32,253 nucleotides of DNA from Tychonema sp. LEGE 07203. Its GTDB lineage: Bacteria > Cyanobacteriota > Cyanobacteriia > Cyanobacteriales > Microcoleaceae. The stretch spans positions 1 through 32,253 of the forward strand of contig NZ_JADEXD010000069.1 of NCBI RefSeq assembly GCF_015207285.1, given 5' to 3'. The notes beneath the pieces were generated by a model. The model had not been told where the DNA came from. It searched no databases and saw only the letters and a list, made by a program, of their open reading frames with translations. A program made the translations under genes and the position numbers. This document shows, piece by piece, positions 7,611 to 25,737 of this stretch; position 1 is the stretch's first letter, and the number at the start of each line of letters is the position of its first letter.

Positions 7611-7973
7611 ATGGATCAAAAATATTTGTGGATTGAAGCTTTAAAATTTAACGATCGAGGTTTGATTCCGGCGATCGCCCAGGACGATCGAGATGGTACC
7701 ATTTTAATGATGGCGTGGATGAACAAAGAGTCGATCGAGCAGACTCTAGCTACAGGAGAAGCACACTATTGGAGCAGATCGCGCTCTGAATTTTGGCACA
7801 AAGGCGCGACATCCGGGCACATCCAAAAAGTCAAACAAATATTTTACGATTGCGACGCCGATACTATTCTGCTCAAAATAGAACAGATTGGTGAAATAGC
7901 TTGTCACACAGGCGCGAGGAGTTGTTTTTTCAATTCAGTGGCGCTACCACTGCGCGCAAATTTATCAAAATGA
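7611..7973 (+). CDS. hisI: Standalone phosphoribosyl-AMP cyclohydrolase (HisI)
   Basis: A 120-residue protein catalysing the hydrolytic ring opening of phosphoribosyl-AMP in histidine synthesis. Motifs are [26 protein letters not shown] and [10 protein letters not shown]. The Asp cluster (80, 82, 84) for magnesium and the three Cys zinc ligands (81, 98, 105) are all present. Cyanobacteria commonly carry HisI fused to HisE; a separate HisI beside a COG0523 gene fits the known pattern of extra copies of zinc enzymes in Zur neighbourhoods. The ATG at 7611 is preferred over an upstream in-frame start that adds a non-conserved nonapeptide. A relic of hemB begins right after the stop codon. Confidence 0.9.
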
Positions 7974-8096: not shown

Positions 8097-9596
8097 TCAA
8101 ACATCTGTAATTAGCCGGACTTTTCTGAAAATAAAGGTTAATACTGTCTCTTCCCTAGAAATAATATCTGCTGTTACTTCCATTCCAGTTTGTAGGGGAT
8201 AGTGTTCGCCTCCTTTGACAAGATAGGGTTTTTCGACTTCAATTTTTACCTGGTAGTAAGCAGCGGATTTGTCGGCGTTTGTAGGCAAGATCGCATCGGG
8301 AGCAACTTCTCTGACAGCACCTTTGAGAGTGCCATAATCGGGGTAGGGATAGGCAGAAATCCGCAGTTGCACTTTACCCTGCTGACAATCTTTAACCTTC
8401 GGCTGTTGGCAGATTTGCACTTTGCTAATATCTTGAGTAGCAACGCGGGTGATGATAGCGATGGGAGCACGATCGGGGGCAATTTGCGCGATCGCATCTC
8501 CAGAGCGTACCACCTGGCCGGGATTTCGCAACTCCAGCTTTAACACAGTGCCGTTTACCGTTGCTCGGATCGCAGTTTTGTTCAAATCTGCTTCAATTTG
8601 TCGGATTTGGGAGCGATCGCGCTCTAATTGCTTGTTAATTTCTACCCGCTGCTGAATTAGCGCTTCTCGTTCCCGATTAAGTGCTGCTAAGGTTGCTTCG
8701 CCAGTGGCTTTTTCGGCTGCGGTTCGCTGCTGGGCGATCGCCACTTCTGCATTGCTAGGGTTGAGAGCAGTTTTTGTGCGCTGCAACCGCGCCGCCACCG
8801 CTTCCATAACTTGCTGCTGCCGCAAAATCGTTTGTTTTTGCGCTTCAATGGCTCCTTTTTGCGCCGCCACCGCCTGTTGTTGCTGTTCTACCGCTAATTT
8901 CGCCTCCTCAAATTGATCCTGAGAAATCGCGCCCGTTTCCGCGATCGGCTCGTAGCGATCGCGCTTCGATACCGCTGCCTTTAAAGCCGCCTCCACCGAT
9001 TTTAAATTGGCCTCCCCTGACTGCAAATCTGCTTGAAATCTTTGCAATTCCTTCTGCGCCGATCTCAAATTTGCCTCAGCTTCTTCCACTTCCGCCACAC
9101 TATTTCCCTGCCGATCTTCATGCTCTCGCTGACTCCGTTTCAATTCAGCAAAAGCCGAAGCAACTGTGCGATTTATGCGATCGTTTTCCGCCATTTCTTG
9201 GCGTTCTAATGCCAGAATTTGAACATCAAATTGAGCAAATTGTCGCTGTAGTTGCTGAAGATTTCCTTGCAACTGCTTTTTCTCATTTTGCAGTCGCAAA
9301 TCTTCCAAAATAGCAATAACATCTCCTTTGCTTACCCTTTGATTCTCTTTAACTTTAATACTTCTTATCGTCCCCTCGCTGGAGGCTTGCACAATGCGGA
9401 TTTCTCCTGTTGGTCTAACTGTGGCAGGCGCTCTCACTGTCACATTATATTTAAGTGTGGCTGACAAAACCAAAGCAATCCCCACAGCAGCTACTTGGAA
9501 CAATCCTCCTATAGCCATCCAAGGATTAATAGGCTGCAAAAATTCCTCGCTATAAACTGTAGGTAAAAAAGCTTCGTTTGAGTCGTTTAATTTCAT
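8097..9596 (-). CDS. HlyD-family adaptor of the peptide exporter
   Basis: A 499-residue membrane-fusion protein. A cytoplasmic N-terminus is followed by one membrane helix (about residues 27-47), then the first half of a lipoyl/barrel-sandwich domain (NVTVRAPATV to IAILEDL, about 51-100). A long Gln/Glu/Ala-rich coiled coil spans roughly 100-340. The second lipoyl half follows (AIRATVNGTVLKLELRNPGQ), then a beta-barrel domain and a hydrophobic C-terminus. Such adaptors link an inner-membrane ABC exporter to the outer membrane. It lies 147 bp downstream of the precursor peptide gene on the same strand. It is likely co-transcribed from the Zur promoter at 10041 and likely pairs with the C39-peptidase exporter at 11473. 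Confidence 0.9.
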   Translation of the reverse strand: MKLNDSNEAFLPTVYSEEFLQPINPWMAIGGLFQVAAVGIALVLSATLKYNVTVRAPATVRPTGEIRIVQASSEGTIRSIKVKENQRVSKGDVIAILEDLRLQNEKKQLQGNLQQLQRQFAQFDVQILALERQEMAENDRINRTVASAFAELKRSQREHEDRQGNSVAEVEEAEANLRSAQKELQRFQADLQSGEANLKSVEAALKAAVSKRDRYEPIAETGAISQDQFEEAKLAVEQQQQAVAAQKGAIEAQKQTILRQQQVMEAVAARLQRTKTALNPSNAEVAIAQQRTAAEKATGEATLAALNREREALIQQRVEINKQLERDRSQIRQIEADLNKTAIRATVNGTVLKLELRNPGQVVRSGDAIAQIAPDRAPIAIITRVATQDISKVQICQQPKVKDCQQGKVQLRISAYPYPDYGTLKGAVREVAPDAILPTNADKSAAYYQVKIEVEKPYLVKGGEHYPLQTGMEVTADIISREETVLTFIFRKVRLITDV

Positions 9597-9644
9597 TTAA
9601 ATATGATTAATTTCTGAAGATATGGCGTATTTTTCTTGCAGGAA

Positions 9645-9681
9645 CGATCCAGATAAGATATCGCGAATACTTTCTGGATCG
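9645..9681 (-). terminator. Hairpin between precursor and hlyD genes (possible attenuator)
   Basis: CGATCCAGA (9645-9653) and TCTGGATCG (9673-9681) form a 9-bp perfect stem with a 19-base loop. On the reverse strand no long T run follows, so it may be a partial terminator or RNA-stabilising hairpin. Placed after a precursor gene, it would let more precursor than exporter be made. Confidence 0.45.
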
Positions 9682-9743
9682 ACCTTTTATTCAGTACCAA
9701 TTTTTGAGAACATTCTCATTTAACTAGCAGCCAAAGTCCCTGG

Positions 9744-9971
9744 TTATGCCAGCAGAGTTGAGCTCTCTTCTGCCACACCATACCAGTGATGCCAAGGCAT
9801 ACTGCACTGGTGACTACCACAGGTACAACCTCCAGAAACAGAAGACATATCTTCATCCGTCAGTTCGATCAAACCGGCTGGATTTTCTGGCAGTTGTGCC
9901 TTTTCTTCAGCACTCAAGCTATCCAAATAGTCTTCATCTTTCCAAGCGCGGATGATGTGTTCGTTCAACAT
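9744..9971 (-). CDS. Mersacidin/lichenicidin-type RiPP precursor peptide with Cys/His-rich core
   Basis: A 75-residue precursor. The leader (1-48) begins MLNEHIIRAWKDEDYLDSLS and continues with LPENPAGLIELTDEDMSSV, the leader pattern of class II lanthipeptides of the mersacidin/lichenicidin type. It ends in Gly47-Gly48, the cleavage site for C39 peptidases. The 27-residue core starts CTCGSHQCSMPWHHWYG. It holds Cys49, 51, 56, His54, 61, 62, and Ser/Thr at 50, 53, 57, 70, 71, 72. Only Thr50 and Ser53 lie before a Cys, so classical N-to-C rings are limited. A strong AAGGAG lies 9 bases before the ATG. The gene is driven by the divergent Zur promoter at 10041, and a LanM, an exporter and YcaO/TfuA genes are nearby. 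Confidence 0.9.
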   Translation of the reverse strand: MLNEHIIRAWKDEDYLDSLSAEEKAQLPENPAGLIELTDEDMSSVSGGCTCGSHQCSMPWHHWYGVAEESSTLLA

Positions 9972-10030
9972 GATGCACCACTCCTTATGGGTACAGTAAT
10001 TTATAGGGGGGTGATTCCCTATAGATTGAG

Positions 10031-10062
10031 TATACTATAATGATAATCATTATCACAGCCAA
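10031..10062. promoter_or_regulatory. Divergent promoter with perfect Zur box
   Basis: TGATAATCATTATCA (10041-10055) is a perfect palindrome. On the reverse strand TTGGCT (10057-10062) and TATAGT (10034-10039) are separated by exactly 17 bases, with the box filling the spacer; this would drive the precursor gene. On the forward strand TATAAT (10036-10041) abuts the box and would drive the monooxygenase gene. One operator can therefore silence both directions. Confidence 0.9.
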
Positions 10063-10077
10063 AAACCAGAATTTTCT

Positions 10078-11307
10078 ATGGAAATCACCAGTGTTGCGCC
10101 ATCGCAAATCGATTTAGCGGTAGTCGGGGCGGGGCCTCACGCTTTAACCCTGGTTACTCATTTGCTGCAAAAATGCCAGAAGAAGCGGGGCAAATTTTGG
10201 GTTTTTGACCCCAGTGGTGGCTGGCTAACTCAGTGGGAGAGGCAGTTTGCGGCTTTGGAAATTCCACACTTGCGATCGCCTGCTGTCCACCATCCCGATC
10301 CCAATGCTTTTGAGTTGCGACGGTTTGCAGAGTCTCGCCCTAACGAGTTGTTTGCGCCCTACGATTTGCCGGGAAGTCGGCTGTTTGAGGAATTTTGTGG
10401 CGATGTGGTTAAGAGATGGGAATTGGGCGATCGCGTCATCAAGGCAAAAATAACTCGCATTGAACCGCTGCGGGGAAGTTTCCGGCTTTGGTTTGAGGAT
10501 GGAGAAAGTGCAATTGCGCGTCGTGTTGCGATCGCCACAGGCGGCGGTAAACCCCAACTACCGGAGTGGACAAATCAAATTCAAACGCCCTATCCGCCAG
10601 ACAAACTTTGCCATTCCCATCAAGTTGATTTGCGGGGATTAAAGTTGCAGGGAGAAAGGATTTTAATCGTTGGGGGCGGTTTAACTAGCGGACATTTAGC
10701 AGTAGGTGCGATCGGGCGCGGTGCCCAAGTAATATTAATGTCAAGACGACAGTTGCAAGAAAAATTATTTGATGCCGAACCGGGTTGGTTAGGGCCCAAA
10801 TATCTCAAAGGTTTTGAAAATGAACCCGACTGGGAAAAAAAATGGGAGATGATTCAACAGGCTCGCAATGGCGGCTCTATGACTCCTGAAATAATGCTAC
10901 AATTACGTCGAATGTCGCGGGATTTGAGCATCGAATTTCACCCAGAATGTCAAATTATTAATGTCAAATGGGATAACAATCAATGGACTGTTTACTGTCA
11001 GGATGGAAATCAGCTATTCGTTGATAGAATTTGGTTAGCAACGGGAACAAAATTAGATGTAACAGCCGAACCATTGCTGACAGAAATTTTAGCAACTTAT
11101 CCAACTAAAATAGTTAAAGGATTGCCTGTTTTGGACAAGTATTTGCGTTGGCCCGGATGCGAGTTATTTATTATGGGTGGTTTAGCCGCTTTGCAAGTAG
11201 GGCCTGTTGGTCGAAATCTTTCCGGTGCCAGGATGGCAAGTTCGCGAATTGTGCCAGCTTTAATTAAGTCTAGGGCTGCGGTTTCATCTGCTCAAATTGC
11301 TGGTTGA
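10078..11307 (+). CDS. FAD/NAD(P)-binding monooxygenase-like protein
   Basis: A 409-residue flavoprotein. An FAD-binding motif VGAGPHAL lies at residues 16-23, an NAD(P)-binding motif LIVGGGLTSGHLAVG at about 195-210, and WLATGTKLD near 320 matches the ATG motif of flavin N-hydroxylases. The layout resembles the lysine/ornithine N-monooxygenase group (IucD/PvdA/SidA-like), enzymes that install hydroxamate ligands in siderophores. The closest relatives are probably uncharacterised FAD/NAD(P)-binding proteins, so substrate assignment is uncertain. It is transcribed divergently from the precursor through a shared perfect Zur box. It could tailor the peptide or a separate metal ligand. A bidirectional terminator follows. 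Confidence 0.8.
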   Translation: MEITSVAPSQIDLAVVGAGPHALTLVTHLLQKCQKKRGKFWVFDPSGGWLTQWERQFAALEIPHLRSPAVHHPDPNAFELRRFAESRPNELFAPYDLPGSRLFEEFCGDVVKRWELGDRVIKAKITRIEPLRGSFRLWFEDGESAIARRVAIATGGGKPQLPEWTNQIQTPYPPDKLCHSHQVDLRGLKLQGERILIVGGGLTSGHLAVGAIGRGAQVILMSRRQLQEKLFDAEPGWLGPKYLKGFENEPDWEKKWEMIQQARNGGSMTPEIMLQLRRMSRDLSIEFHPECQIINVKWDNNQWTVYCQDGNQLFVDRIWLATGTKLDVTAEPLLTEILATYPTKIVKGLPVLDKYLRWPGCELFIMGGLAALQVGPVGRNLSGARMASSRIVPALIKSRAAVSSAQIAG

Positions 11308-11373
11308 TTCTGTCAAATTTAGGCGCGATTGCGACATAAGCATCGAAATCAATTTTACCAGAAATCAGGAGAT

Positions 11374-11420
11374 AAAAGTGCCATTTTCCTACAATTAATC
11401 TGGGTAGGAAATGGCATTTT
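11374..11420. terminator. Bidirectional terminator
   Basis: TGCCATTTTCCTAC (11379-11392) pairs with GTAGGAAATGGCA (11404-11416) except for one bulged base. The stem is flanked by AAAA on the left and TTTT on the right. It lies between the convergent monooxygenase and exporter genes and can serve both. Confidence 0.85.
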
Positions 11421-11472
11421 CTATAGGTGTTAATTGAACTTCAAACCTATAATATGCAAGGGTTTTAGCTAA

Positions 11473-13617
11473 TCAAGGAGTCAAAAAGTCTAAATGTCCC
11501 CCCGATTTAGAGAGTAAATCTGCGACAACTCCTTCGATTTTTACCTGTCCATTTTCCATGAACACAATCCAGTTAGCTCGATTAATCACTCTAGGGCGAT
11601 GACTAATTAAAATAGTAGTTTTGCCTTGGCGATGAGATAGAAGCCCATCGAGGACTTCCGCTTCACTTATGGGGTCGAGATTGGCTGTAGATTCGTCTAA
11701 AATTAAGATGGGTGGGTCAGTAACAATGCCTAAAGCGATCGCTAACCTTTGTCGCTGACCTCCCGAAAGATTTGCGCCTAATTCCCCTAAAATAGTTTGA
11801 TATTTACTAGGAAGTTTACTAATAAATTCATCCGCCCTAGCAATTTGACAAGCCTTGACAATTTGCTCAAATCCCACGCCAGGATTTCCCAATCGTAGAT
11901 TATCAATAATTGGGCGAGTCCAAAAGTGCGACTCTTGGGGAATAATTACAATTTGTTCCCGGATACAATCAAGAGAAAGGTCGGGTAAATTGTAATTACC
12001 AATGCGAATATTACCAGACTGAGGCTGATATAAACCAGCGATAATTTTGGCTAAGGTACTTTTTCCACAACCAGACTTGCCAATTAAGGCGATAACTTGA
12101 CCGCCGGGAATAGTCAGAGAAAAGTTTTCTAAGAGCTCGTTTCTACCAGAATGGTGAAAGTTGAGATTGCTGCAAATAATGTCAGCATTGCTAGGAATTC
12201 TAACCGATGGTCTGGTATTTTTGTCTTGAATTTCAGGCGTAGAGTCGATGACTTCAACTACCCGATCGATCGCCGATCGCGTAAAGGTTAGTTGATTGAC
12301 AAAACCAATGACACTGGCAATGAAAGTGAGGAAGTTTCTATTCATGGTACTCAAAGCTAACAATTGCCCAATACTCAATTCTTGACTAAAGACTAGATTG
12401 CTGCCAAACCACAGCAAACTTATCTCACCAGCTAAGGAGAAAAAGCCCGAAAAAGTGTTATTTATAATTGCCACTTGATTCATATTAAAAGTAATATTTG
12501 CTTGTCTCCCATAGCGCACTTGAAACTCCTCCCAAAATTGAGGTGCAGCATTTTTGGCTTTCAGGACGATCGCACCTTTAAAAGTTTCCACTAGCAAAGC
12601 TGTATTTTCGGCTGCTACAATTAATAAACTGCTGACATTTTGTTTAAGTTTAGGTAGCAATATCAAAGTTGAGATAGTCATCAATAAGCCAATTCCCAAA
12701 GCAACTCCGAGTAACTTTGGGCTGTAGGCTAACATTAAACTCAGGGAAATAGCAGCCACGAAAAATTGACTGGGCAGTAAGATAATTGCTTGAGAAATAA
12801 TTTGATTAATTTGTTCAATATCTCGCAAGCGACTGGCAATTTCACCGCTGCGGTGGCATTCGTAGTATGCCATTGGTAGACCTAAGATAGTTCGGCAAAA
12901 TTCTAAGATTAAATCTAACTGCAACCGCTGGGAAAAATGAGCGACTAAGTTTAGTTGTACGAATTTTAAACTGCTGTTAACTAAATTCATTACCAGAACA
13001 GCAATAACTACAGCATTGAGTAACTTATTATCCCCTCTTACTAGCACGTCATCGGTGAGAATTTGTAGTAGAAATGGAGAGGCGAGAGCAAGTAAAGCTG
13101 AGACGAGATTCAACAAGAGTGCTTCGGCGAGAATGTGGCGATAATTCCAGACTCGCAGTAAGAAACGCTGGAAGGTGCTAACGCGATCGCCCTCGTCAAT
13201 TTGTGCTAGAAAGTCTGGGTGCGGTTCTAGCAGTAACATCACGCCATTTTGCCAACTTAATTGCAGTTCTTTTCTGGATAAATACCGGATACCAAAACCA
13301 GGATCGGCGATGACGTAATTGCCACCTTTGCGCCCGTATAAAATGACCCAGTGAAAGCCTTTCCAGTGAATAATACCTGGTAAAGTTACGACTTTTTTAT
13401 CAATTAGTTCTAAGGAGGCTTTTACGCCTCTGGCATTGAATCCAAGAGTTTTAGCGCCTTGTTTGAGATTGAGTAATGTGGTTCCTAAAGCGCCAGTACC
13501 GGAGACTTCGCGGGTTTTACTGAGGGTGAAAATTCGACCGTAATATTTGGCAATGGCTGCTAGGCAAGCTGCGCCACAATCTTCTTCGCTATGCTGTAAT
13601 ATAACTGGGTATTTCAT
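11473..13617 (-). CDS. C39-peptidase-containing ABC exporter for Gly-Gly leader peptides
   Basis: A 714-residue peptidase-transporter. The N-terminal C39 domain (1-135) has Gln8, Cys14 in EEDCGAACLA, His89 in HWVILYG and Asp105 in ADPG, so the catalytic set is complete. A six-helix membrane domain follows (about 155-440). The ATPase (about 475-700) has Walker A ALIGKSGCGKSTLA, signature LSGGQRQRLAIA and Walker B ILILDEST. It cuts leaders after Gly-Gly and exports the core, which fits Gly47-Gly48 of the precursor. It lies downstream of lanM and a toxin-antitoxin-like pair on the same strand, so it may be read from the 17819 Zur promoter. Its partner adaptor is encoded at 8097. Confidence 0.93.
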   Translation of the reverse strand: MKYPVILQHSEEDCGAACLAAIAKYYGRIFTLSKTREVSGTGALGTTLLNLKQGAKTLGFNARGVKASLELIDKKVVTLPGIIHWKGFHWVILYGRKGGNYVIADPGFGIRYLSRKELQLSWQNGVMLLLEPHPDFLAQIDEGDRVSTFQRFLLRVWNYRHILAEALLLNLVSALLALASPFLLQILTDDVLVRGDNKLLNAVVIAVLVMNLVNSSLKFVQLNLVAHFSQRLQLDLILEFCRTILGLPMAYYECHRSGEIASRLRDIEQINQIISQAIILLPSQFFVAAISLSLMLAYSPKLLGVALGIGLLMTISTLILLPKLKQNVSSLLIVAAENTALLVETFKGAIVLKAKNAAPQFWEEFQVRYGRQANITFNMNQVAIINNTFSGFFSLAGEISLLWFGSNLVFSQELSIGQLLALSTMNRNFLTFIASVIGFVNQLTFTRSAIDRVVEVIDSTPEIQDKNTRPSVRIPSNADIICSNLNFHHSGRNELLENFSLTIPGGQVIALIGKSGCGKSTLAKIIAGLYQPQSGNIRIGNYNLPDLSLDCIREQIVIIPQESHFWTRPIIDNLRLGNPGVGFEQIVKACQIARADEFISKLPSKYQTILGELGANLSGGQRQRLAIALGIVTDPPILILDESTANLDPISEAEVLDGLLSHRQGKTTILISHRPRVINRANWIVFMENGQVKIEGVVADLLSKSGGHLDFLTP

Positions 13618-13701
13618 TATAGTTAACTTTATATTATGTCATATCAAGCTAAAAGCAACCGGGTTTCTCAGCAGAAGTGCGATCGCCCTTGACAAATTCA
13701 T

Positions 13702-14067
13702 TCAAAAAATCTCTCGCAAATGAACTATTCGATCTTGATATTCATCATTAAAAGATGCTTCAGCAATAAAAATCAATTGCCGAATATTTTGTCCGATACT
13801 CAATTTGGAATTAAGGATAAAAATGCCAGGAATATGATAACCTTCAGCCAAATGCTCTGTCAAATGTACGGGCATTGATTTACGATTGTTCGTCACCAAT
13901 ATAAAGTTATATTCCTCACACCATTTAAGAATTTCTGGATCTAAAGTTCCCAAACTTGGAGCTTCGGGTTCACCAACACACCAAATTATCAAATCTGCAT
14001 TGCGCGTAAGGATTTCAGCTTTATATCTAGGGTCTACATTTTCATCCAACAGATAATTGAGGCTCAT
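13702..14067 (-). CDS. DUF5615 PIN-like putative toxin
   Basis: A 121-residue protein with the DUF5615 pattern: MSLNYLLDENVDPR at the start, an Asp-rich segment GTLDPEILKWCEEYN, and ILVTNNRKSMP. The fold is PIN-like, and these proteins are thought to be RNase-type toxins paired with DUF433 proteins. Its start overlaps the DUF433 gene by 26 bases, so the two are translationally coupled. It lies between lanM and the exporter on the same strand, inside an otherwise dedicated RiPP operon. The acidic residues needed for PIN-type catalysis appear present (Asp8, Asp12), but activity is unproven. Confidence 0.8.
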   Translation of the reverse strand: MSLNYLLDENVDPRYKAEILTRNADLIIWCVGEPEAPSLGTLDPEILKWCEEYNFILVTNNRKSMPVHLTEHLAEGYHIPGIFILNSKLSIGQNIRQLIFIAEASFNDEYQDRIVHLREIF

Positions 14068-14395
14068 TTGTTACTTGTTTAGCTTTGATTTCGGCGCTCA
14101 ATTTTTGCAATCTAACGATACCGGGGGGAGGGTTAAGTTCTTGTGCTTTAAGTTGCTGGTGACTCCACTCCAACCAATCAGTGATGTAGTTACTAACAGC
14201 CTCTTTATTGTGCAGGTAGTAAAGGATTGTAGCATAAACTTGTTCTAAGTTAAGAGATGAATAAGTTTGAGCTATTTGTTCGGGAGTGCGAGCGCGATGA
14301 ATGAAATCATAGAGGATGGTTTCAATGCCTATTCGCGTCCCTTTGACTCGAATATCATCGGGCCGCTGAAAGTCCAAATAATCTTCAATTTGCAT
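14042..14395 (-). CDS. DUF433 putative antitoxin
   Basis: A 117-residue protein. The first 75 residues match the DUF433 domain: DYLDFQRPDDIRVKGTRIGI, then RARTPEQIAQTYSSLNLEQV and ATILYYLHNKEAVSNYI. This is a small winged-helix-like fold found as the antitoxin partner of DUF5615 toxins. The C-terminal tail is charged and probably binds the toxin. The gene starts 96 bases after lanM and overlaps the DUF5615 gene, giving the usual antitoxin-first order. It may have its own promoter in the AT-rich gap at 14396-14460. Confidence 0.82.
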   Translation of the reverse strand: MQIEDYLDFQRPDDIRVKGTRIGIETILYDFIHRARTPEQIAQTYSSLNLEQVYATILYYLHNKEAVSNYITDWLEWSHQQLKAQELNPPPGIVRLQKLSAEIKAKQVTNEPQLSVG

Positions 14396-14491
14396 GGTGA
14401 TTTTTCCGATTTTAAATTTGATAGAAATTGGCTGGGTAGTTGATATTATATCATATCAATGGCGCTTGAGTATTTTCGATTCAATGAAAAA

Positions 14492-17400
14492 TTAAGCGCG
14501 ATCGCCTCTTGACAAGAAAAATATATCTGTAAATGGCGGTGCGATCGCGAGTACAGAAGGCACAATATTGGGGGCGGCCAATCTCAGAAATCCGTAGCCA
14601 ATTCCGGCTATTCCCGTCATTAAACCTAAGTTTTCTACTCGCTGCGGTACGTCGCAAATCCAACCATATTGGGCAATACTTTCAATCACATTAAGAGCAA
14701 TCTGATTGATTTCCGATCGCCCGGAAGTATTCAATATTTGCCGATCGCAATTCAGGAATTCCAGATTGCCGAGATCGCCGTTGCAGAGAGAATGATTGCC
14801 ACCAAAACCGCGCGCGATCGCAGTCTCCCGCGCCGCATCGATCTCAGCCAAAATTTCCCCATCCTGAAAATGGCGGAGTGAATGCAATCGCCCGAAACCG
14901 ATACCGGGTGCGCCGTGACTCCATCCCAAGCTAAAAAATTGGGTACAATCGCGCTCAAATCGCAAATCAGGCCAGTTTTTTGCCTTTTCTGAGAACAAAC
15001 TGCGCTCGTAAGCGATCGCACCCACCGCCGCCGAGTGAAAACGTTCCTCACCTGTCAGCGTTGCCAACTCCAACAGCGCCCAAGCGATACCCGCCGCACC
15101 GTGAGAAAATCCTGTCAGCGGCTTACATCCGGGAATTGTCAGCCAACCGATTCCTTGGGGCATTTTTTCGGCTTTTTCGAGGATGCGATCGCCACACTGA
15201 ATTGCCACTGTTTTAATGCGATCGCCCCCAACACAGCAATGCAGACTCGCCAAAGCCCCAATACACCCCGCCGCGCCCCCAATAATATCTAATTGCTCAT
15301 CCTTGGAAATCAATACTGGCAAGCGTTCCACCCATTCAACCGCCATTGACAGCAATTCTGGCTGCTGCCACAAAGTACCCAAGTGAGTCAAAGTATAAAT
15401 CAACCCTGCCCAGCCGTTGAAAGCACCAATGGATGAAATCAGCCTGCCCTCATATTCGATTTGGTGCAGTAGCGATCGCATCCCCGCCTGGGCTAATTCC
15501 CGATAGCGATCCTGTTTTGTCACCGCACCCAAATAAGCCAGAAACAACGCCACACCCGGAATCCCATCCCACAAATCCCACCCCAAAGGGCTAACCGCCC
15601 AGTGGCGAGTACCCGTAAAAACAGGCCCGATCCAGCCAGCCAAATCGCGATCGCTCACTGCTAAAGACTCCAATCTGTCGCCGATCGCACTTGCTGCTTG
15701 CAAATACGCCAACTCAGCCGCCCGATCGTCTGCTGCTTCCACCTTTGGCATCCGGTAACTAAGTGAGTTACCCGGTTCCACCACCATCCCTAACGTTGTG
15801 AGAGAAGTGCGAACAAACCATAGCTGACGCTCTAAATCGGCTTCATTCATAGCTTGTAGCCGTTGCCGCACCAACTCCAGCCCCGATTCGTCAAAAAAAT
15901 CGCGAAAACACTCGCCGTTACTCGCCCAAAGGTGGCGGGAGTTGGGGTACGTTGTGAGTTTGGGGATATCACCTTGCCACAAAGCCTCTTTCTCAGCGGG
16001 TATAACGCGCTCTAGGTATGGCAGCGCGGGGACTTCTACCCAAAGTTTATCGAAAATGCGATCGCGATCGAGGGCATCCCGCAACAAATTTGGATGAAAA
16101 CTTTCTTGCAGCAAGATCCCGTAACTCCGGGTTTCCCGCAGGAAAACGCGCACTTCATCTGTCGCAAAGCGATTTAAAAAATTGCTGAATTCCTCTCTAT
16201 GCTTGACGATTAGCCGATAAGTAGCAGTAAATCCAGTTGCGATCGCCTCCTGATACTCCAACGCATTCACCAACACCCCCTGCAAGCGCGGTTGATTTTG
16301 ATTTTCTCCGATCGCGATCGCTTGCCGATCAACCTTTGCTTCATCAGTGTTTGACGCTTTTAAACCGATTGTGCGCCCCACGCCCAACCGTTCGGGATTA
16401 CCACCGATCGCGCTCACATCTACCGCATCTGGTCCGATCGCCTGGGGTTGTGGCAGCAAACCCACGCGCAGTACCGATTTGCCCATTTCTCGACGGGCGG
16501 GGAGAACTGAATTTGGCGAATTTGGGGCAACTGGATGGGGGTGAAACAGCGATTCTAAGTCAATTAAGACAGGGTTTTCCCCCGCTGCGATCAGGTTTTC
16601 GGCGTGGAAATCAGTGCCTTGGATAGCGTGCAGTAGCGCTAGTAACCCGCCCAGGCGCTGGTAGAAGCGTTCGACGGCGGCGTCCGTTTCGCAACTGCTG
16701 GTATGGGCGAATTCTACCCATCCGTAACTGCCGCGATCGAGGATTTGCAAAGTGCGAAATTGCATCAACTCACTTTTAGTATTCAGCCATGTGAGAAGTT
16801 CTTGGAAGCGAGCGTCTACAGCGAGGGGTTTGGGCTTGTAGGCGATTTGCCAGCCGGAGCTAAATTTGACAATAGTGACGCTGCGGCCGCCGTTGTGAGC
16901 GTCGCCAGCACCCGCTTTGACTTGTGCTAGGACTCCTAGCTCGATTTTGGGGGAAAAGTGAGAGATAATTGTTTCCCAGTCATCGCAGAGGCGCTGGAGA
17001 AATTCTAAGCTGAGATCGACCCAGGAATTTATACAAATGACCAATTGCTCGGCTAATACTGGGTATTCTTGCAAAATCGCGATCGCACTTTCGGGTTCTT
17101 CTAACCGCTGCAAGAAGCTCTGGAAGCGCTGTTGAGGAGTTTCGCCCGTCAGCAAGCCTTGCAATCGCTGGGCGTTTAGTTCTAGCGCCATTGTTGGGTT
17201 CAGCATCCAGAAGAAGCGATCGGGCAAAAATCCTAACAAAATTGATTCAATGGTAGCGCGATCGAAGGGTAGGGACGATCCTTTTTTCTCCTCTACTAAG
17301 GCGGCAATTCCTTGACGCAAGCGGTTTTTACCTTGAGCAAGTAGAGGCGCGATCGCGATCGTAAAGCCTTCTGCCTCCGTGCGATATTGCTCCGCAACGC

Positions 17401-17725
17401 TGACGCGATCGCCCATCGCAAACGCCGCCTCCAATTCTTGCAACCAACCTAGAGGCTTTCCATGTCGCTTAGCCAGTGCCGAGGCTGGTTCTCCCAACAG
17501 ATACCGAAATTCAGCCTCAGTAATTCCCTCTAAAGCCAGCTTCATATCGAAAAAAGTATCTTTTGTCAAGGGGTATTGTTGTCGCCACCGCTGTAATCGG
17601 CGATCGGCTAATTCCCCATCGAACTCATCTTTGCAGCCAGCGCCCAAAGACGCAATCCGTTCGCTCAGGGCGATCGCCCGATACCAACTCTCCCCTTGAA
17701 ATACTTGTCTATCCATCGCCTCCAC
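14492..17725 (-). CDS. lanM: LanM class II lanthipeptide synthetase with an incomplete cyclase zinc site
   Basis: A 1077-residue bifunctional enzyme of usual length. The N-terminal dehydratase (about 140-650) keeps the kinase-like residues: AYKPKPLAVDARF, TDFHAEN (Asp372, His374, Asn377) and LIDLESLF (Asp389, Glu391). It should phosphorylate and eliminate Ser/Thr of the precursor. The LanC-like cyclase (about 715-1070) keeps GFSHGAAGI (His875). However, the motif normally WCHGAPG reads WSHGAPG (Ser936), and the motif normally CHGDLG reads CNGDLG (Cys981, Asn982). Two of three zinc ligands are therefore missing. Ring closure may be absent, uncatalysed or metal-free. A divergent Zur promoter lies 94 bases upstream of the start. 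Exporter genes follow on the same strand. Confidence 0.93.
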   Translation of the reverse strand: MEAMDRQVFQGESWYRAIALSERIASLGAGCKDEFDGELADRRLQRWRQQYPLTKDTFFDMKLALEGITEAEFRYLLGEPASALAKRHGKPLGWLQELEAAFAMGDRVSVAEQYRTEAEGFTIAIAPLLAQGKNRLRQGIAALVEEKKGSSLPFDRATIESILLGFLPDRFFWMLNPTMALELNAQRLQGLLTGETPQQRFQSFLQRLEEPESAIAILQEYPVLAEQLVICINSWVDLSLEFLQRLCDDWETIISHFSPKIELGVLAQVKAGAGDAHNGGRSVTIVKFSSGWQIAYKPKPLAVDARFQELLTWLNTKSELMQFRTLQILDRGSYGWVEFAHTSSCETDAAVERFYQRLGGLLALLHAIQGTDFHAENLIAAGENPVLIDLESLFHPHPVAPNSPNSVLPARREMGKSVLRVGLLPQPQAIGPDAVDVSAIGGNPERLGVGRTIGLKASNTDEAKVDRQAIAIGENQNQPRLQGVLVNALEYQEAIATGFTATYRLIVKHREEFSNFLNRFATDEVRVFLRETRSYGILLQESFHPNLLRDALDRDRIFDKLWVEVPALPYLERVIPAEKEALWQGDIPKLTTYPNSRHLWASNGECFRDFFDESGLELVRQRLQAMNEADLERQLWFVRTSLTTLGMVVEPGNSLSYRMPKVEAADDRAAELAYLQAASAIGDRLESLAVSDRDLAGWIGPVFTGTRHWAVSPLGWDLWDGIPGVALFLAYLGAVTKQDRYRELAQAGMRSLLHQIEYEGRLISSIGAFNGWAGLIYTLTHLGTLWQQPELLSMAVEWVERLPVLISKDEQLDIIGGAAGCIGALASLHCCVGGDRIKTVAIQCGDRILEKAEKMPQGIGWLTIPGCKPLTGFSHGAAGIAWALLELATLTGEERFHSAAVGAIAYERSLFSEKAKNWPDLRFERDCTQFFSLGWSHGAPGIGFGRLHSLRHFQDGEILAEIDAARETAIARGFGGNHSLCNGDLGNLEFLNCDRQILNTSGRSEINQIALNVIESIAQYGWICDVPQRVENLGLMTGIAGIGYGFLRLAAPNIVPSVLAIAPPFTDIFFLSRGDRA

Positions 17726-17798
17726 ACCCTGACTCCTTGAAAGCCTGTCCCGCCATTCATGGCAAAGCCTTGATTTTGGGCAAAATTGGCGATCGTGC

Positions 17799-17846
17799 TT
17801 GACTTAGTTACGCGACTATGATAATCATTATCACTGTGGTTGTCAA
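17799..17846. promoter_or_regulatory. Divergent promoter with perfect Zur box, lanM / porin
   Basis: TGATAATCATTATCA (17819-17833) is identical to the box at 10041. On the reverse strand a perfect TTGACA (17841-17846) and TATCAT (17818-17823) are 17 bases apart and overlap the box, giving a strong promoter for lanM. On the forward strand TTGACT (17799-17804) and GATAAT (17820-17825) form a weaker candidate for the porin, which would have a leader of about 150 bases. Confidence 0.85.
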
Positions 17847-17987
17847 GGCGATCGGTCAAAACCTCAAGCCTAAAAGCTAACAGATAAGCGGGTAAACATA
17901 GTTTGACCTCGTGTCTTTTGACTAGCTTAGCAACCCAGTACAAATATTACACAAACCTTAAATTCATCAGGTATGTGAGGAGTCTTC

Positions 17988-20162
17988 ATGTTAAAAATTT
18001 TGTGCAATTCTCTATTATTTAGCCCAGTAACAATGTGTGCTGTTCTAGCAGTTTGTGGGAGTGCGATCGCCAGCGAATCCACAGATTTAGCCCAAAATGC
18101 GCCGATTCAAAACCTAGAAAAAATAGCCGAAACCACCGCAGCAGCAACGCCCGAAAATCAGCTCGAAGCAACAAGTATTATCTCTACAAACTTGTTGTCC
18201 AATCCTAGCAGCGAATCCCTGACAGATGTTGGCACAGTAGAAAAAATAGAACCATTGCCAGCTCAAGAAAATAACCTGAGCATTCAGGAAAAAATAGCAG
18301 CTACAGAGATCGATCGAACATCGCAAAACTCAACAACTGCAACTGAAGCCTTACCAGCCCAAGAAATAGCAGATTCAACAGCAAATTTAACAGCAGAAAA
18401 TCCCTCTCTAATCTCCGATCCACTAGAACAGCCCAGCGCCAGTTCAGAATCAATGGATCAAGTTACATCCGTCTCCCAACTATCCGATGTAAAGCCCACA
18501 GATTGGGCATTTCAAGCCTTACAATCATTAGTCGAACGCTACGGCTGCATCGCAGGATATCCCGACGGCACCTATCGCGGAAATCGCGCCATGACTCGTT
18601 ACGAATTCGCCGCTGGATTAAACGCTTGTCTCGACCAAGTTACCAAATTAATTAGCAGTTCAACAGCTAATTTAGCCACCAAAGAAGACTTAGCAACCAT
18701 ACAAAAGTTGCAAGAAGAATTCGCTGCCGAACTTGCTACCTTGCGGGGCAGAGTCGATGCTTTAGAAGCTCGAACTTCCGAACTCGAAGCCAACCAATTT
18801 TCCACAACTACAAAATTGAGCGGCGAAGTAGTTTTTGCCCTGACAGACGTATTAGCTGGCGATAACGTTAGAACCCGCCTTCCCTTATCACCTCTCAATC
18901 CAATTACCGGAGCACGGCGAGAACAATCTAGAGAATTTACTACAGACGAGCAAAACACAGTCTTTGCCAACCGCGTCCGCCTGAATTTCCTGACAAGTTT
19001 TACCGGGAAAGATATGTTAAAAATCCGCCTGACAGCGGGTAATTCAGCACACCCAGGCAGACGAGGCCCTGACAATATTCGAGGCTTTGAATATGGCCCA
19101 AACCCAGTTGCGGCTTATCAATCCGGCGGCAATCAAGCCGAACTAGCCAGAACCAACGAAGGCCAACAAACCTTTCAAGATATCAGTACATTATCTGCCA
19201 ATAATACCTTTGGATTAACAGCTTTAAGTTACGAGTTTCCCATTAGTTCTCCTTTGCAAGCTGTCATCATGGCAAAAGATGGCGAACACATGGACTATGT
19301 ACCTACAACATTCAGTCTTTTTGAAGACGGAAATGGCGGTACTCGTTCTCTATCTATACTCGGTCAACGCAACCCAATTTATAGCATTGGTGGATTAGGT
19401 GCTGGTGCAGGATTCAATTACAGATTCAGCGAAAAATTAAATCTCAGTGTTGGATATTTAGCGGGAACTGCGGAAAATCCAAGTCAAGGAAATGGCTTAT
19501 TCAATGGTAGATATTCGGCTCTCGCTCAGCTAACATTCAATCCCACCCGCAACCTATCCTTGGGTTTAATTTACAACAACAACTATCAGGTAGGATCGCC
19601 GTTATTTAATAACGATGTGGGGACAACTCTTGCCAATAGTCCAATTTTTTTAACCGATAAATATGCCACCAATTCTTATGGTTTATCAGCCTTGTGGCGA
19701 GTTAATCGCAGATTTGGGATCGGCAGTTGGTTTAGCTATACCGATGTCAAAAGTTTTGGCGGAACATTAGCTCCCGGTACGCCCTTTGAGACTCGTTTCA
19801 GCAGTAGCAGTGCTGATATTTTCAGCTACGGTGTTACTTTAGCTTTTCCTGACCTTGGAAAGCCAGGAAATTTAGGAGGAATTGTAATTGGTGTACCTCC
19901 CCATTTGACGAGTGCCAAAACTCCTTCTCCTTTTGATGAACCTCAAAGTGTACCGGGGAATCGAGCGGGTTATGATACGAAGGATTTAGTCAGACGAATT
20001 CCCGATCGCGCTACTCCTTTTCACATTGAGGGTTTCTACGTTTATCGCCTTACGGATAATATCTTGCTGACTCCTGGTTTGATTTGGTTAACGGCTCCCA
20101 ATCAAACGAATAAAAATCCTGATGTTGTGATTGGAACTTTGAGAGCTACATTCCTTTTTTAA
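17988..20162 (+). CDS. SLH-domain OprB-type outer-membrane porin
   Basis: A 724-residue outer-membrane protein of the cyanobacterial Som/OprB type. A signal peptide (1-29, ending near CGSAIAS) is followed by a low-complexity Ala/Ser/Glu/Thr linker (30-155). One SLH domain lies at about 160-220 (VSQLSDVKPTDWAFQALQSL, then CIAGYPDGTYRGNRAMTRYE), which anchors to peptidoglycan-linked polymer. A short coiled coil (about 225-265) precedes a beta-barrel domain ending in Phe, as expected for outer-membrane proteins. Relatives are often annotated as iron-uptake porins. Here the gene shares a Zur operator with lanM, so it is more likely a zinc-responsive channel for metal or the peptide-metal complex. 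The linker is longer than usual. Confidence 0.88.
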   Translation: MLKILCNSLLFSPVTMCAVLAVCGSAIASESTDLAQNAPIQNLEKIAETTAAATPENQLEATSIISTNLLSNPSSESLTDVGTVEKIEPLPAQENNLSIQEKIAATEIDRTSQNSTTATEALPAQEIADSTANLTAENPSLISDPLEQPSASSESMDQVTSVSQLSDVKPTDWAFQALQSLVERYGCIAGYPDGTYRGNRAMTRYEFAAGLNACLDQVTKLISSSTANLATKEDLATIQKLQEEFAAELATLRGRVDALEARTSELEANQFSTTTKLSGEVVFALTDVLAGDNVRTRLPLSPLNPITGARREQSREFTTDEQNTVFANRVRLNFLTSFTGKDMLKIRLTAGNSAHPGRRGPDNIRGFEYGPNPVAAYQSGGNQAELARTNEGQQTFQDISTLSANNTFGLTALSYEFPISSPLQAVIMAKDGEHMDYVPTTFSLFEDGNGGTRSLSILGQRNPIYSIGGLGAGAGFNYRFSEKLNLSVGYLAGTAENPSQGNGLFNGRYSALAQLTFNPTRNLSLGLIYNNNYQVGSPLFNNDVGTTLANSPIFLTDKYATNSYGLSALWRVNRRFGIGSWFSYTDVKSFGGTLAPGTPFETRFSSSSADIFSYGVTLAFPDLGKPGNLGGIVIGVPPHLTSAKTPSPFDEPQSVPGNRAGYDTKDLVRRIPDRATPFHIEGFYVYRLTDNILLTPGLIWLTAPNQTNKNPDVVIGTLRATFLF

Positions 20163-20165
20163 ATA

Positions 20166-20263
20166 GGGCCAGAAACCCGGTTTCTTTATCTGGCCTCAGA
20201 AACCGGGTTTATTCCTAAATATCTCATTCAAAATCCAATTTTTATCGAGAAACCCGGTTTCTT
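20166..20263. repeat. Palindromic AGAAACCCGGTTTCT repeats
   Basis: Three copies of the palindrome GAAACCCGGTTTC or close variants occur between the porin and the TfuA gene, the last ending about 10 bases before the TfuA ATG. Two can pair to form a hairpin that could attenuate transcription from porin into TfuA. Related copies form the hairpin at 24029-24094, and a half copy (ACCGGGTTTCTC) lies at about 13659. Confidence 0.8.
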
Positions 20264-20270
20264 TACCTTT

Positions 20271-21710
20271 ATGCAGTCATTTCTACCCATTGCTGTATTC
20301 TTAGGCCCCTCTCTCAAAATAGATGAAGCTAGAAAAATTCTGGATGCAGACTATTACCCTCCCATTTCCAAGGGAGATATTTATCGAATTATGGCATCTG
20401 GTGTAGAAACTATTATTTTAATTGATGGAGTTTTGCACCGAGAAAGAGCTGTTTGGCAACGTGAAATTTGCGACGCAATTAATGCTGGAATTAAAGTTTA
20501 TGGTGCATCAGGTGTAGGAGCGTTGAGAGCCGCAGAATTGCAAGTATTTGGCATGAAGGGTTGCGGTCAAATTTTTGAATGGTATCGAGATGAAATTATT
20601 GATGGAGATGACGAAATTTGGCTAACTTACGGTGATGCAACTGATAACTTTCGCCCGATTTCAGAACCGCTAGTTAATATCCGTTATACTTTACTGAATG
20701 CTGTTAAAGATGGTTTGCTGAGAGCAGAACAAGCAGAAGAATTAATTGGCTTTGCTAAAAAAATATACTATCCCAATCGCTCCTACCAGCAGCTTCTAAA
20801 AAGTCCAGTTTTACAACACCTATCTCCCGTAGCTTTTGCCGATATAACAACTTACTTAATGACAAAGCAAGTTGATTTAAAAAAACTCGATGCTATCCAA
20901 GTGCTGAATTTGCAAGCTGAGGTTTCCCAAAAACAAGATATTATCTCTAGTAAATTCAATAAATTAGAATTGCCAGTGCCAGAAATTCTTAGTAAAATAG
21001 TTGAAATGACTGGCTTTATTCGCGCTGATAAAATTTGCACGGGCAGAGAACTTTTATTGGCAGTCAAACAGGATGTTAATTTGCTAAAAGAGATGCAAAT
21101 CAATTTATCAAAACACTGTTTTATTCGGGAGTGGGCGCAGCAAAATTGCATTGTTTATCCAGAACAAAACTTAGAGTATGACTTGGTTAAGTGGGAAAAA
21201 GTACATGGCATTGTTTGCAATGTAAAATGGTTGCAGTCTAATGGCTTAACTTTGTATAGCTACAGGGAATTGATGCGCGATCACCTAGCAATTGATTGGA
21301 TAACAAACCAAGAACCAGAGTATTTTGGAATTAATGTAAATTTAGAGCAGTTTATTCAAGAAGAATTGCCAATTACCAACAGTAATTTATCCTATGTTTC
21401 TCAGGTAGAATTAACTGTTTTACGGTACAAATTATCACAACGCTATTTTATTTTAGAATGGGCAACCCAAAATAATATCTTTCCAGATATATCGCTAAAA
21501 AGTTACCTAGAAAAGAAAGAGCAAGAAAGTATATCTGCTAATAGCTTGAACCTTAATTTTGACAGATTTATCTTAAAAAATAGAGCATTTGAAGAGTGGA
21601 TTGTCAAGCAAGGCCCAAACTATTTCGGAATTCCTTGGAGTTTTCCTAGCGCCTTGTGTAGACAATTGCAAATTACTGGAAAAGCCGCATATTTACTGAA
21701 AAATAACTAA
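20271..21710 (+). CDS. TfuA-like protein with a duplicated C-terminal module
   Basis: A 479-residue protein. Residues 1-200 form the TfuA domain: VFLGPSLKIDEARKIL, YYPPISKGDIYRI, TIILIDGVLHRERAVWQREI and VYGASGVGALRAAEL. TfuA proteins act with YcaO enzymes in peptide thioamidation and related backbone changes. Here the ycaO gene follows after 6 bases. Typical TfuA proteins are near 200-250 residues. The extra half contains two related modules, about 283-372 and 392-472, sharing F-I-x-E-W-A-x-Q-N and W-I-x-x-Q-x-P-x-Y-F-G-I. These are unknown to me and may bind the substrate peptide. The start lies right after a palindromic repeat and lacks a clear Shine-Dalgarno site. No Zur box is adjacent; transcription may come from the porin promoter. 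Confidence 0.88.
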   Translation: MQSFLPIAVFLGPSLKIDEARKILDADYYPPISKGDIYRIMASGVETIILIDGVLHRERAVWQREICDAINAGIKVYGASGVGALRAAELQVFGMKGCGQIFEWYRDEIIDGDDEIWLTYGDATDNFRPISEPLVNIRYTLLNAVKDGLLRAEQAEELIGFAKKIYYPNRSYQQLLKSPVLQHLSPVAFADITTYLMTKQVDLKKLDAIQVLNLQAEVSQKQDIISSKFNKLELPVPEILSKIVEMTGFIRADKICTGRELLLAVKQDVNLLKEMQINLSKHCFIREWAQQNCIVYPEQNLEYDLVKWEKVHGIVCNVKWLQSNGLTLYSYRELMRDHLAIDWITNQEPEYFGINVNLEQFIQEELPITNSNLSYVSQVELTVLRYKLSQRYFILEWATQNNIFPDISLKSYLEKKEQESISANSLNLNFDRFILKNRAFEEWIVKQGPNYFGIPWSFPSALCRQLQITGKAAYLLKNN

Positions 21711-21716
21711 AAAAAT

Positions 21717-22874
21717 ATGAATGCACTTACTAAAGGTTATGCGATCGGTACTCACCGTTTAATTTCGCCGGAACAGACTTTAGCAAATATTCAGCCTTAC
21801 TTAGCAGCAGCAGGGATTACTCGTTGTGCAAATATAACTGGTTTAGATCGAATTGGTATTCCCGTTTATTGTTCGATAAAACCCGGTGGGCGCTTGGTAC
21901 AAATCCACAACGGTAAGGGATTATATCCTATGGCGGCTAAAGTCTCAGCCTTAATGGAAGCGATAGAAGTTTTTCATGCCGAAAACCCATACTGCGATTT
22001 CCATCGCGACAGTTTTAAGGGTATTTCTCAGAGCAATATAGCAGTTATTTCACCTGATATTTTACCGCTTTACTTGTCACAAAATTTCTTTAGCAAAGAC
22101 TTGATAATCGACTGGATTAAAGCCGAAGATTTGCGGACAAATGAAAGTGTTTTTCTGCCTGCAAGTGCTGTTTATCTGTGTTCGCCGTCGCTGTACAGCT
22201 TTTCCTCAAATGGTCTTGCTAGCGGCAATCACATTGTGGAAGCAACGCTACATGGACTTTATGAGTTAATTGAAAGAGATGCGATCGCCCGCGTCAGCAT
22301 TAATGGTAAAATAGACTTAAAAAACTGTGAAATAATCGATCTCAATACAGTAGATGACGAGTCGATAGGCGAACTGATTGATAAGATTGAAGGTGCTAAT
22401 TTTAAACTAATATTAATCCGGCTAAAAAGTTGTATTTATATCCATACTTTTTGGGCAATTATCCTTGACAAAAATCCCTTAACTCCTGCGATTATGGTGA
22501 ATTTTGGTTGCGGAACACACCTAAGTATTTCTGTAGCTGCGGCACGGGCAATTACTGAGGCGGCTCAATCGAGATTGACATTTATTTATGGTGTTAGTGA
22601 AGAGTTGGCAGAGCCACTTCCTCCCGATCGTAGCCAGACTTATTATAAAATTTATGCTTATTTCGATCGTTTAGAAGGGACAGTGCCTTGGCAAAATTTT
22701 AGCAGTTTAGCTGGCAATAATTTAAGCGAAGATTACGATCGGGTTTTGCGATGTCTTTGGGAAGCTGGATATGAAAATATATTCCGAGTCGATCTGGCGC
22801 GATCGACATTTAATATTCCAGTGGTTAAAGTTATAGTGCCGGAGTTACGATATAACCCTTCAATAACTGGGTAA
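21717..22874 (+). CDS. YcaO-domain enzyme partnered with TfuA
   Basis: A 385-residue standalone YcaO protein. ATP/Mg-binding motifs are in order: NGKGLYPMAAKVSALMEAIE (65-84), SSNGLASGN (about 163-170) with HGLYELIERDA (about 179-189), and AITEAAQSRL (about 278-287). YcaO enzymes activate peptide backbone amides with ATP, giving azolines when a Cys/Ser/Thr side chain attacks or thioamides when sulfide does. The C-terminus (PELRYNPSITG) lacks the PxPxP ending common in azoline-forming cyclodehydratases, and no E1-like or ocin-ThiF partner is present. With TfuA this favours thioamidation, but azoline formation on the Cys-rich core stays possible. It is tightly linked to the TfuA gene. Confidence 0.9.
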   Translation: MNALTKGYAIGTHRLISPEQTLANIQPYLAAAGITRCANITGLDRIGIPVYCSIKPGGRLVQIHNGKGLYPMAAKVSALMEAIEVFHAENPYCDFHRDSFKGISQSNIAVISPDILPLYLSQNFFSKDLIIDWIKAEDLRTNESVFLPASAVYLCSPSLYSFSSNGLASGNHIVEATLHGLYELIERDAIARVSINGKIDLKNCEIIDLNTVDDESIGELIDKIEGANFKLILIRLKSCIYIHTFWAIILDKNPLTPAIMVNFGCGTHLSISVAAARAITEAAQSRLTFIYGVSEELAEPLPPDRSQTYYKIYAYFDRLEGTVPWQNFSSLAGNNLSEDYDRVLRCLWEAGYENIFRVDLARSTFNIPVVKVIVPELRYNPSITG

Positions 22875-22911: not shown

Positions 22912-23979
<1,068 letters not shown>

Positions 23980-25729: not shown

Positions 25730-25737
25730 AGTAAATC

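Follow-up and report, generated by a model that had tools for sequence, protein, structure and literature searches.

The stretch of DNA analysed here, referred to as the window, comprises 32,253 nt of Tychonema sp. LEGE 07203 (contig C346 within a 6.6-Mb draft genome) and harbors, at 8097-22874, a gene cluster for a ribosomally synthesized and post-translationally modified peptide (RiPP), the promoters of which carry sequences resembling the binding site of the zinc regulator Zur. Profile searches have revealed an HlyD adaptor, a mersacidin-type precursor, a C39 peptidase-ABC exporter, LanM, an OprB/SomB porin, TfuA and YcaO, so that the gene set proposed in an earlier note on this DNA is borne out by Pfam or NCBIfam matches for every RiPP-unit gene listed there. 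These genes are arranged as two minus-strand units, the first with the precursor followed by HlyD and the second with LanM, two small inserted genes and the C39 exporter; the porin, TfuA and YcaO are transcribed opposite to the LanM/exporter unit, and all unit genes are open in the window. The closest named LanM relatives found, in a search that may omit very near records, are those of Microcoleus metagenome-assembled genomes and Oscillatoriales cyanobacterium USR001.

Two perfect and mutually identical copies of a 15-nt Zur-type box are located at 10041-10055 and 17819-17833, exactly as the earlier note had reported. Genome-wide, sites with 0-1 mismatch number seven, with five of these inside the 32-kb window; at ≤2 mismatches we counted 48 sites vs. 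34 for a reversed control pattern, and 2-mismatch sites alone therefore mean little. The published 23-base cyanobacterial Zur motif, NTNANAATGATNATCATTNTNAN, inferred from RegPrecise (PMC9337993; here and below, statements drawn from cited papers refer to the portions of their text that were available), is matched by five window promoters at 1-2 mismatches of 16 specified bases (2615, 10034, 17812, 22911 and 25742), the promoters of the precursor and of LanM, with 1 and 2 mismatches of 16 between them, included; 20 shuffles of the window yielded zero matches to this motif at ≤2 mismatches. The box at 17819 covers 10 of the 17 spacer bases and 5 of the 6 bases of the -10 element in a predicted sigma-70-like LanM promoter agreeing at 11 of 12 positions (TTGACA-N17-TATCAT, 17846-17818, minus strand), and the box at 10041 falls inside the spacer of a 9-of-12 precursor promoter (TTGGCT-N17-TATAGT), with the promoter scan yielding 3 sites near box 17819 vs. 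a shuffle mean of 0.5, and 3 vs. 1.2 near box 10041. Four Fur-family proteins are encoded in the window genome. As judged by the match to the published motif, the perfect boxes and their conservation in relatives (see below), the precursor/HlyD and LanM/exporter units are very probably under Zur control, a central proposal of the earlier note.

The RiPP boxes are part of an island with three further strong boxes, positioned at a small COG0523-like gene, hemB and znuABC; a weak box (2 mismatches) at 5297 is the sole box for the COG0523 GTPase/folE/hisI genes at 5418-7973. The hemB gene of the window matches the pattern of Zur-controlled backup enzymes that do without zinc, e.g. HemB2 (PMC2770081). 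Proximity to znuABC recurs, as the LanM loci of genomes G027, G372 and Dolichospermum DET69 also adjoin these genes. When the znuA genes of 30 genomes were searched for the box, the outcome was mixed, as the top znuA-like match was often a paralogue; in G043 and G090, the LanMs of which are unboxed, a 1-mismatch box was present in the znuA-like locus.

The precursor search covered 195 genomes of the order Cyanobacteriales, with matches in 19 including the window genome, and the LanM search covered 388, with a match in 114. Among LanMs of the clade (≥40% identity), 21 of 40 have a box with ≤1 mismatch in the span from 450 bp before to 60 bp after the start, whereas shuffles predict 0.017 (L044, located at the end of a contig, was excluded), and such a box was found in 0/20 sampled LanMs of <40% identity. 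Thus the same gene set with Zur boxes, for which the earlier note had advised looking in other cyanobacteria, does recur there. By genome, a boxed LanM is present in 25 of 388, distributed over seven family groups, and remnants occur in a further two; for G028 and G027 the precursor's box was counted, and the 25 take in G154 (Dolichospermum DET69, with a 2-mismatch box before the gene upstream of LanM), G350 (LanM with an internal stop) and G372 (no exporter or precursor found nearby). We left out L035, L036 and L037, as the same species as L057, L060 and L059, from the tree, core test and box count, and LanM frames shorter than 700 residues (L049, L104, L111, L112) from these as well as from the ligand table and domain conservation; partial LanM matches of 48-49% identity (G272:C453, G150:C468) stand outside the comparisons, and 20 of the matches <40% were examined. 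The usual order of the unit is porin, box, LanM, C39 exporter, box, precursor and HlyD, with the precursor preceding LanM in G027 and G308. In Trichormus (Anabaena) variabilis ATCC 29413, which stands outside the 388-genome count, the unit resides on plasmid A, typed conjugative, near GTPase, phosphoesterase and hisI genes like those of the window; the LanM/porin box is perfect there, that of the precursor has 1 mismatch, and the LanM keeps the zinc ligands. The Dolichospermum unit next to znuABC is also on a plasmid typed conjugative. A class-wide search with the precursor profile matched 11/388 genomes (13 matches), and the seven matches outside the order (G455, G494, G542, three in G553, and G649) had no site with ≤3 mismatches in the fetched locus.

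After its GG motif, the window precursor has a core of 27 residues (CTCGSHQCSMPWHHWYGVAEESSTLLA) harboring three Cys and three His. At least three Cys and at least one His are found in 21/21 boxed cores vs. 11/29 unboxed ones (Fisher p 2e-6, without correction for kinship). In this test, G154 and G113 were counted as unboxed although their precursors have 3-mismatch sites; the core search recovered no core from L060 and L106 (boxed) or from L073, L094 and L098 (unboxed), and in two L052 cores it ends the leader a few residues too soon. The leaders are alike and the cores diverge strongly between lineages, those of boxed units being grouped as: 1) type A, CxC-x4-C-x4-HH (the window, USR001, MP8IB2, G056, G338, G375, G004); 2) type B, CX2CX4HX4-5C (G065, G235, G315, G350, G376, G381, G384, ATCC 29413), with exactly X4 in G065; 3) type C, CX2CX7-8HX5C (G028, G071, G088, G089, G218, G258); 4) type D, other His/Cys clusters (G027, G154, G308). 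The order and near-spacing of the type B residues are those of a zinc knuckle. This pattern supports the supposition that the Cys/His-rich core of boxed units could bind metal.

The window LanM has the dehydratase and LanC-like domains of a class II enzyme (PF13575, PF05147, TIGR03897), but the Cys/Cys/His (or Cys) cyclase zinc site of class II lanthipeptide synthetases is lost at two of three positions: in alignment with LicM2 (6st5), Ser occupies the first ligand position (W-S-HG for W-C-HG) and Asn replaces His at the third (C-N-G for C-H-G). The earlier note had missed this loss, as it had the wider Zur-box island. Together with 14 boxed relatives lacking two or three ligands, the window LanM forms one clade (SH-like approximate likelihood-ratio support 99) in a 45-LanM tree, a quick one with a long-branch warning at the outgroup and with 16 of the 20 rows <40% identity left out. 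The middle Cys is kept in 14 of these 15 LanMs, with G004 lacking all three ligands, and all 15 have the motifs DxH, YKP, DFHxEN, DLE and R-x-T/S, which are catalytic in dehydration. Among unboxed LanMs of ≥40% identity, 17/18 keep the ligands; in the exception, G113, the flavoprotein carries a box variant (TGAGAATGATTCTGA) that is the same as that of the precursor region (TGAGAATGATTCTAA; 3 mismatches each), so that G113 may be under Zur too. Draft genome G258 (L091 and L092), the assembly of which is rated 5% contaminated, has a boxed LanM without ligands and an unboxed one with ligands. From the first 11 loci it had seemed that Zur-boxed LanMs are generally devoid of zinc ligands, a rule we rejected because 8 of 23 boxed rows retain them; pairs were too few for an independent-contrast test of box vs. 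ligand loss to be informative.

The ratio of LanC to dehydratase conservation, with pairs of ≥85% dehydratase identity left out, was 1.00 for ligand-less boxed, 1.02 for unboxed and 0.91 for boxed ligand-keeping LanMs; since 1.00 is close to 1.02, the LanC domain of ligand-less LanMs seems to be still under constraint. Core types are divided along the same line, with types A and C and the G065 core pairing with ligand loss, and the other scorable type B cores and type D with kept ligands, and the chemistry of the product may thus differ between lineages. We surmise that the window system works like a LanM pathway, but we do not classify it as a proven lanthipeptide, (methyl)lanthionine being a possible feature of its product.

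A porin is divergent from LanM in 21/24 boxed loci vs. 0/17 unboxed ones, with G154 listed as boxed; two further boxed loci have too little upstream sequence to judge. The porin divergent from box 17819 in the earlier note is hence a repeated feature of boxed loci. A co-regulated TonB-dependent receptor, presumed usual for Gram-negative zincophores but not strictly defining them (PMC10957091), was not found in the window system, where the boxed porin may take its place; the Zur regulon of Anabaena PCC 7120 does include TonB receptors (PMC6103462, PMC10957091). Our search of the window genome yielded a single TonB receptor, with a 4.3-kb locus in which the best site has 4 mismatches. With no close site at the sole TonB receptor found, the boxed porin is the available candidate for the outer membrane, an argument limited by the fact that other boxed genes of this genome were examined in part only. 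In G092 (L112), LanM is truncated, yet the box and an open porin gene persist, and the porin may therefore be of use in the absence of the peptide; in G378 (L111), a LanM remnant is accompanied by a porin that is broken too.

Two further components of the cluster did not hold up as constant parts. YcaO/TfuA, which the earlier note had counted in the cluster, are present in the window, but among boxed units they are confined to type A cores: they lie beside 7/7 units with a readable type A core, plus CSU_2_2, where the precursor lies beyond the available sequence, and beside 0/17 boxed type B, C and D loci (of which some are short). We therefore rejected them as a constant unit part and regard them as an accessory of one core type. 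In the window, tfuA and ycaO adjoin each other and cluster with a precursor (20271-22874), the arrangement by which thioamidated RiPPs are recognized; their best NCBIfam models are McrA-glycine thioamidation proteins, with scores below the cut-offs. TfuA-related clusters have been reported in Cyanobacteria (PMC8120280), in a paper the main text of which does not contain the word zinc. YcaO relatives at 54-56% occur beside an unboxed LanM in G043 and elsewhere in G372 and G376, and none of these YcaO-relative loci has a site with ≤3 mismatches in the fetched locus. The cluster of G043 (L055), with an unboxed LanM, four precursors, TfuA and YcaO, is a LanM/YcaO hybrid without Zur signs. As for the flavoprotein, the divergence from the common box at 10041 stands, but membership in the RiPP set does not: a match was found in 155/291 genomes of the order, 24 of the 30 best loci (L204-L233) have a box with ≤2 mismatches within 450 bp upstream, and only 3 of these 30 genomes (G000, G056, G065) have a boxed full-length LanM among the genomes compared. 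A search against solved structures gave no match. As a widespread Zur-boxed gene, it was rejected as a peptide-modifying enzyme; it is probably a general cyanobacterial Zur-boxed gene that is not part of peptide synthesis.

On balance, we lean by a little towards the view that this is a zinc-starvation peptide system, Zur-controlled and zinc-binding in the service of zinc acquisition. The interpretation of the earlier note is thereby retained in its Zur-type control, conservation and Cys/His core, and given up for the flavoprotein and for YcaO/TfuA as a constant part. In the model that we propose from sequence, in which repression, product chemistry, zinc binding and uptake route are all predicted steps, a fall in zinc would release Zur from the conserved boxes at 10041 and 17819 and the precursor would be made. 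LanM, the dehydration motifs of which are intact, would phosphorylate and dehydrate Ser/Thr residues of the core; with two of three ligands lost, the LanC domain would either not cyclize the peptide, leaving free Cys thiols, or cyclize it in a metal-free manner as in class III. In the window lineage, YcaO/TfuA would probably add a thioamide or azoline to the type A core. The C39 exporter would cut at GG and secrete the peptide together with HlyD; the genes for a GG leader, C39-ABC and HlyD are those of an exported product, as a zincophore must be, on gene content alone. Outside the cell, three Cys and one or more His would bind zinc, and either the complex or zinc released from it would enter the periplasm through the co-regulated porin, to be taken over by ZnuABC. 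More tentatively, and at odds we would call rather unfavorable, the system may represent the first ribosomal zincophore, comprising a zinc-free LanM, a dehydrated peptide with a free, zinc-finger-like Cys/His site, Zur control and entry via a porin, diversified and carried on conjugative plasmids.

Several observations weigh against this zinc-acquisition reading. The 8 of 23 boxed LanMs that keep their ligands are one, and where ligands are kept, Cys may become thioethers, which are poor zinc binders. Ligands are also absent from five of the 20 distant unboxed LanMs, showing that their loss extends beyond Zur control, and on the tree it is essentially one event (2 changes) and hence no independent evidence for a Zur link. 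The core test leaves kinship uncorrected, and His is also present in 15/29 unboxed cores. The porin is missing beside LanM in boxed G027, G154 and G308, and we know of no OprB/SomB porin acting as a zincophore receptor. Finally, the 15-mer is also similar to Fur boxes known from other bacteria.

The product could instead be a lantibiotic-type weapon deployed under zinc shortage, which would harm neighbours, and free zinc or remove competitors, without binding zinc itself. The mersacidin/lichenicidin-type leader, LanM and the C39 exporter would suit such a role, as would cores that diverge between lineages behind alike leaders in the manner of bacteriocins. However, Cys and His are kept throughout the diverse boxed cores, a co-regulated porin would be odd in the producer, and no immunity gene was recognized among the 26 window proteins scanned against Pfam (small frames having been scanned in part only), and we consider a weapon unlikely. 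Data on regulation, core and porin are equally accommodated if the peptide is not taken up and acts either as a signal of zinc starvation or, outside the cell or in the periplasm, as a zinc buffer or chaperone serving the porin or ZnuA; an exported mediator of zinc uptake, ZepA, has been described in Anabaena (PMC10957091). This reading overlaps with zinc acquisition and is inseparable from it by sequence, but no receptor or signalling gene was noticed in the unit by Pfam/NCBIfam scans, and we deem it quite unlikely. An assignment of the boxes to Fur (iron) or to metals in general, with an iron or copper chelator as the product, appears very improbable given their match to the published cyanobacterial Zur motif and their presence at znuABC and a zinc-free hemB; the resemblance of the 15-mer to Fur boxes, the name 'iron uptake porin' for the porin family and the suitability of thioamides for copper, as in methanobactin, would speak for it. 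Decay, with LanM ligands lost by degeneration and no product from the window cluster, is scarcely credible, as the window unit genes are open, conservation across 15 ligand-less LanMs is as high in the LanC domain as in the dehydratase domain, and exporter and precursor accompany these LanMs where enough sequence is available, notwithstanding the broken relatives (LanM remnants in G378 and G092, the internal stop in G350, G372 without exporter or precursor found near LanM, and G375 with split frames of exporter, HlyD and YcaO).

Methanobactin and similar chelators are ribosomal modified peptides for a scarce metal, but their enzymes, metal and core differ from those of the window. The zinc-acquisition reading places the system between several others. 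With class II lanthipeptides (LicM2, lacticin 481 synthetase) it has in common the LanM domain order, mersacidin-type leader, GG cleavage and C39 exporter; unlike these, it has Zur-type boxes, a cyclase with two of three ligands lost and a Cys/His core. Ligand mutants of LctM dehydrate but cyclize poorly (Paul 2007, as cited in PMC11356792). Cyclase domains without the zinc triad are also found in: 1) a LanM of Pseudanabaena galeata (PMC11356792), which is paired with a Cys-less Nif11 precursor; 2) CcaM of carnazolamide (PMC10676384), which clusters with YcaO, but with a class III cyclase domain and azole-dependent action; 3) class III ThurKC (PMC10604976), which cyclizes metal-free; in the text consulted, none of these is tied to Zur or a Cys/His core. 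Zur-controlled zincophores, of the opine type and others (PMC10957091), resemble the window system in Zur-type control, export and supposed zinc fetching, but here the product would be a ribosomal peptide and a porin replaces the TonB-dependent receptor. ZepA of Anabaena PCC 7120 (PMC10957091) is likewise a Zur-controlled, secreted zinc handler, but an exoprotein rather than a small LanM-made peptide. HemB2-type backup enzymes (PMC2770081) offer a parallel of a ligand-less enzyme behind a Zur box, in our case a RiPP synthetase. No precedent for a Zur-controlled lanthipeptide was found in those titles and abstract openings that searches of the open-licence literature, in which few subscription journals are represented, brought up.

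The features of the window are compiled in Table 1.

Table 1. Genes and Zur-type boxes of the window, with the basis of each assignment.
Feature	Position	Strand	Basis or remark
Zur-type box, 1 mismatch, before small COG0523-like gene and two phosphoesterase-like genes	2616..2630		pattern and published-motif match
His-rich COG0523 GTPase, GTP cyclohydrolase I (FolE), HisI	5418..7973	+	PF02492, PF01227, PF01502
HlyD-type periplasmic adaptor of exporter	8097..9596	-	PF13437; 3' of precursor in most boxed relatives
Lanthipeptide precursor, 75 residues	9744..9971	-	mersacidin/lichenicidin-type leader ending GG; TIGR03898 E 2.8e-21
Perfect Zur-type box TGATAATCATTATCA between precursor (minus) and flavoprotein (plus)	10041..10055		pattern and published-motif match
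FAD/NAD(P)-binding flavoprotein	10078..11307	+	PF13454; common box 10041 with precursor
C39 peptidase-ABC exporter, predicted leader cut at GG	11473..13617	-	PF03412, PF00664, PF00005
DUF5615/DUF433 pair between LanM and exporter	13702..14395	-	Pfam scan; outside the unit
LanM	14492..17725	-	TIGR03897 E 1e-278; PF13575, PF05147; LicM2 alignment
Perfect Zur-type box TGATAATCATTATCA between LanM (minus) and porin (plus)	17819..17833		pattern and published-motif match
SLH-OprB (SomB-like) outer-membrane porin, divergent from LanM	17988..20162	+	PF04966, PF00395, NF033921
TfuA-like partner of YcaO	20271..21710	+	PF07812
YcaO	21717..22874	+	PF02624
Zur-type box, 1 mismatch, before hemB	22912..22926		pattern and published-motif match
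HemB without Cys zinc motif	22930..23979	+	other HemB found in genome keeps motif CLCEYTSHGHCG
znuB and znuC (minus), znuA (plus)	24120..26754		PF01297; PF00950, PF00005
Zur-type box, 1 mismatch, at znuA / znuCB promoter	25743..25757		pattern and published-motif match

The DUF433/DUF5615 pair, which we take to be toxin-antitoxin-like, is inserted at this position in the window only, among 43 loci compared. Between hisI and hlyD, at 7957-8061, there is a broken piece of hemB with several stops (66% identity over 35 residues). The translated frame at 26751-27206 looks, by eye, like a portion of the phosphoesterase-like protein encoded at 4522-5250, suggestive of a copied fragment; default blastn found no DNA match between the two. 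Near the lanthipeptide unit, a small COG0523-like gene recurs together with one phosphoesterase-like gene or a pair of these (2615-5250 in the window; L037, L038, L041 and L202), with Zur-type boxes of its own. At L001 (G000:C244:34530), a perfect box precedes a lipoprotein-like gene with a helix-hairpin-helix match that is sub-threshold only, adjoining what is presumably a multicopper oxidase gene, and at L004 (G000:C204:59722), a 1-mismatch box precedes a candidate transporter gene, which we take from its sequence, without a family search, to encode a CbiM-like part of a cobalt/nickel transporter.

If the zinc-acquisition reading is true, ribosomal peptides would join the bacterial means of fetching zinc, and LanM enzymes would gain a role outside antibiosis. 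The window would then exemplify a RiPP enzyme adapted to run without the very metal whose shortage turns it on. ATCC 29413, as a sequenced strain with the unit, is open to direct test, though its LanM keeps the ligands. The system would also bear on how zinc passes the outer membrane in cyanobacteria without Zur-controlled TonB receptors.

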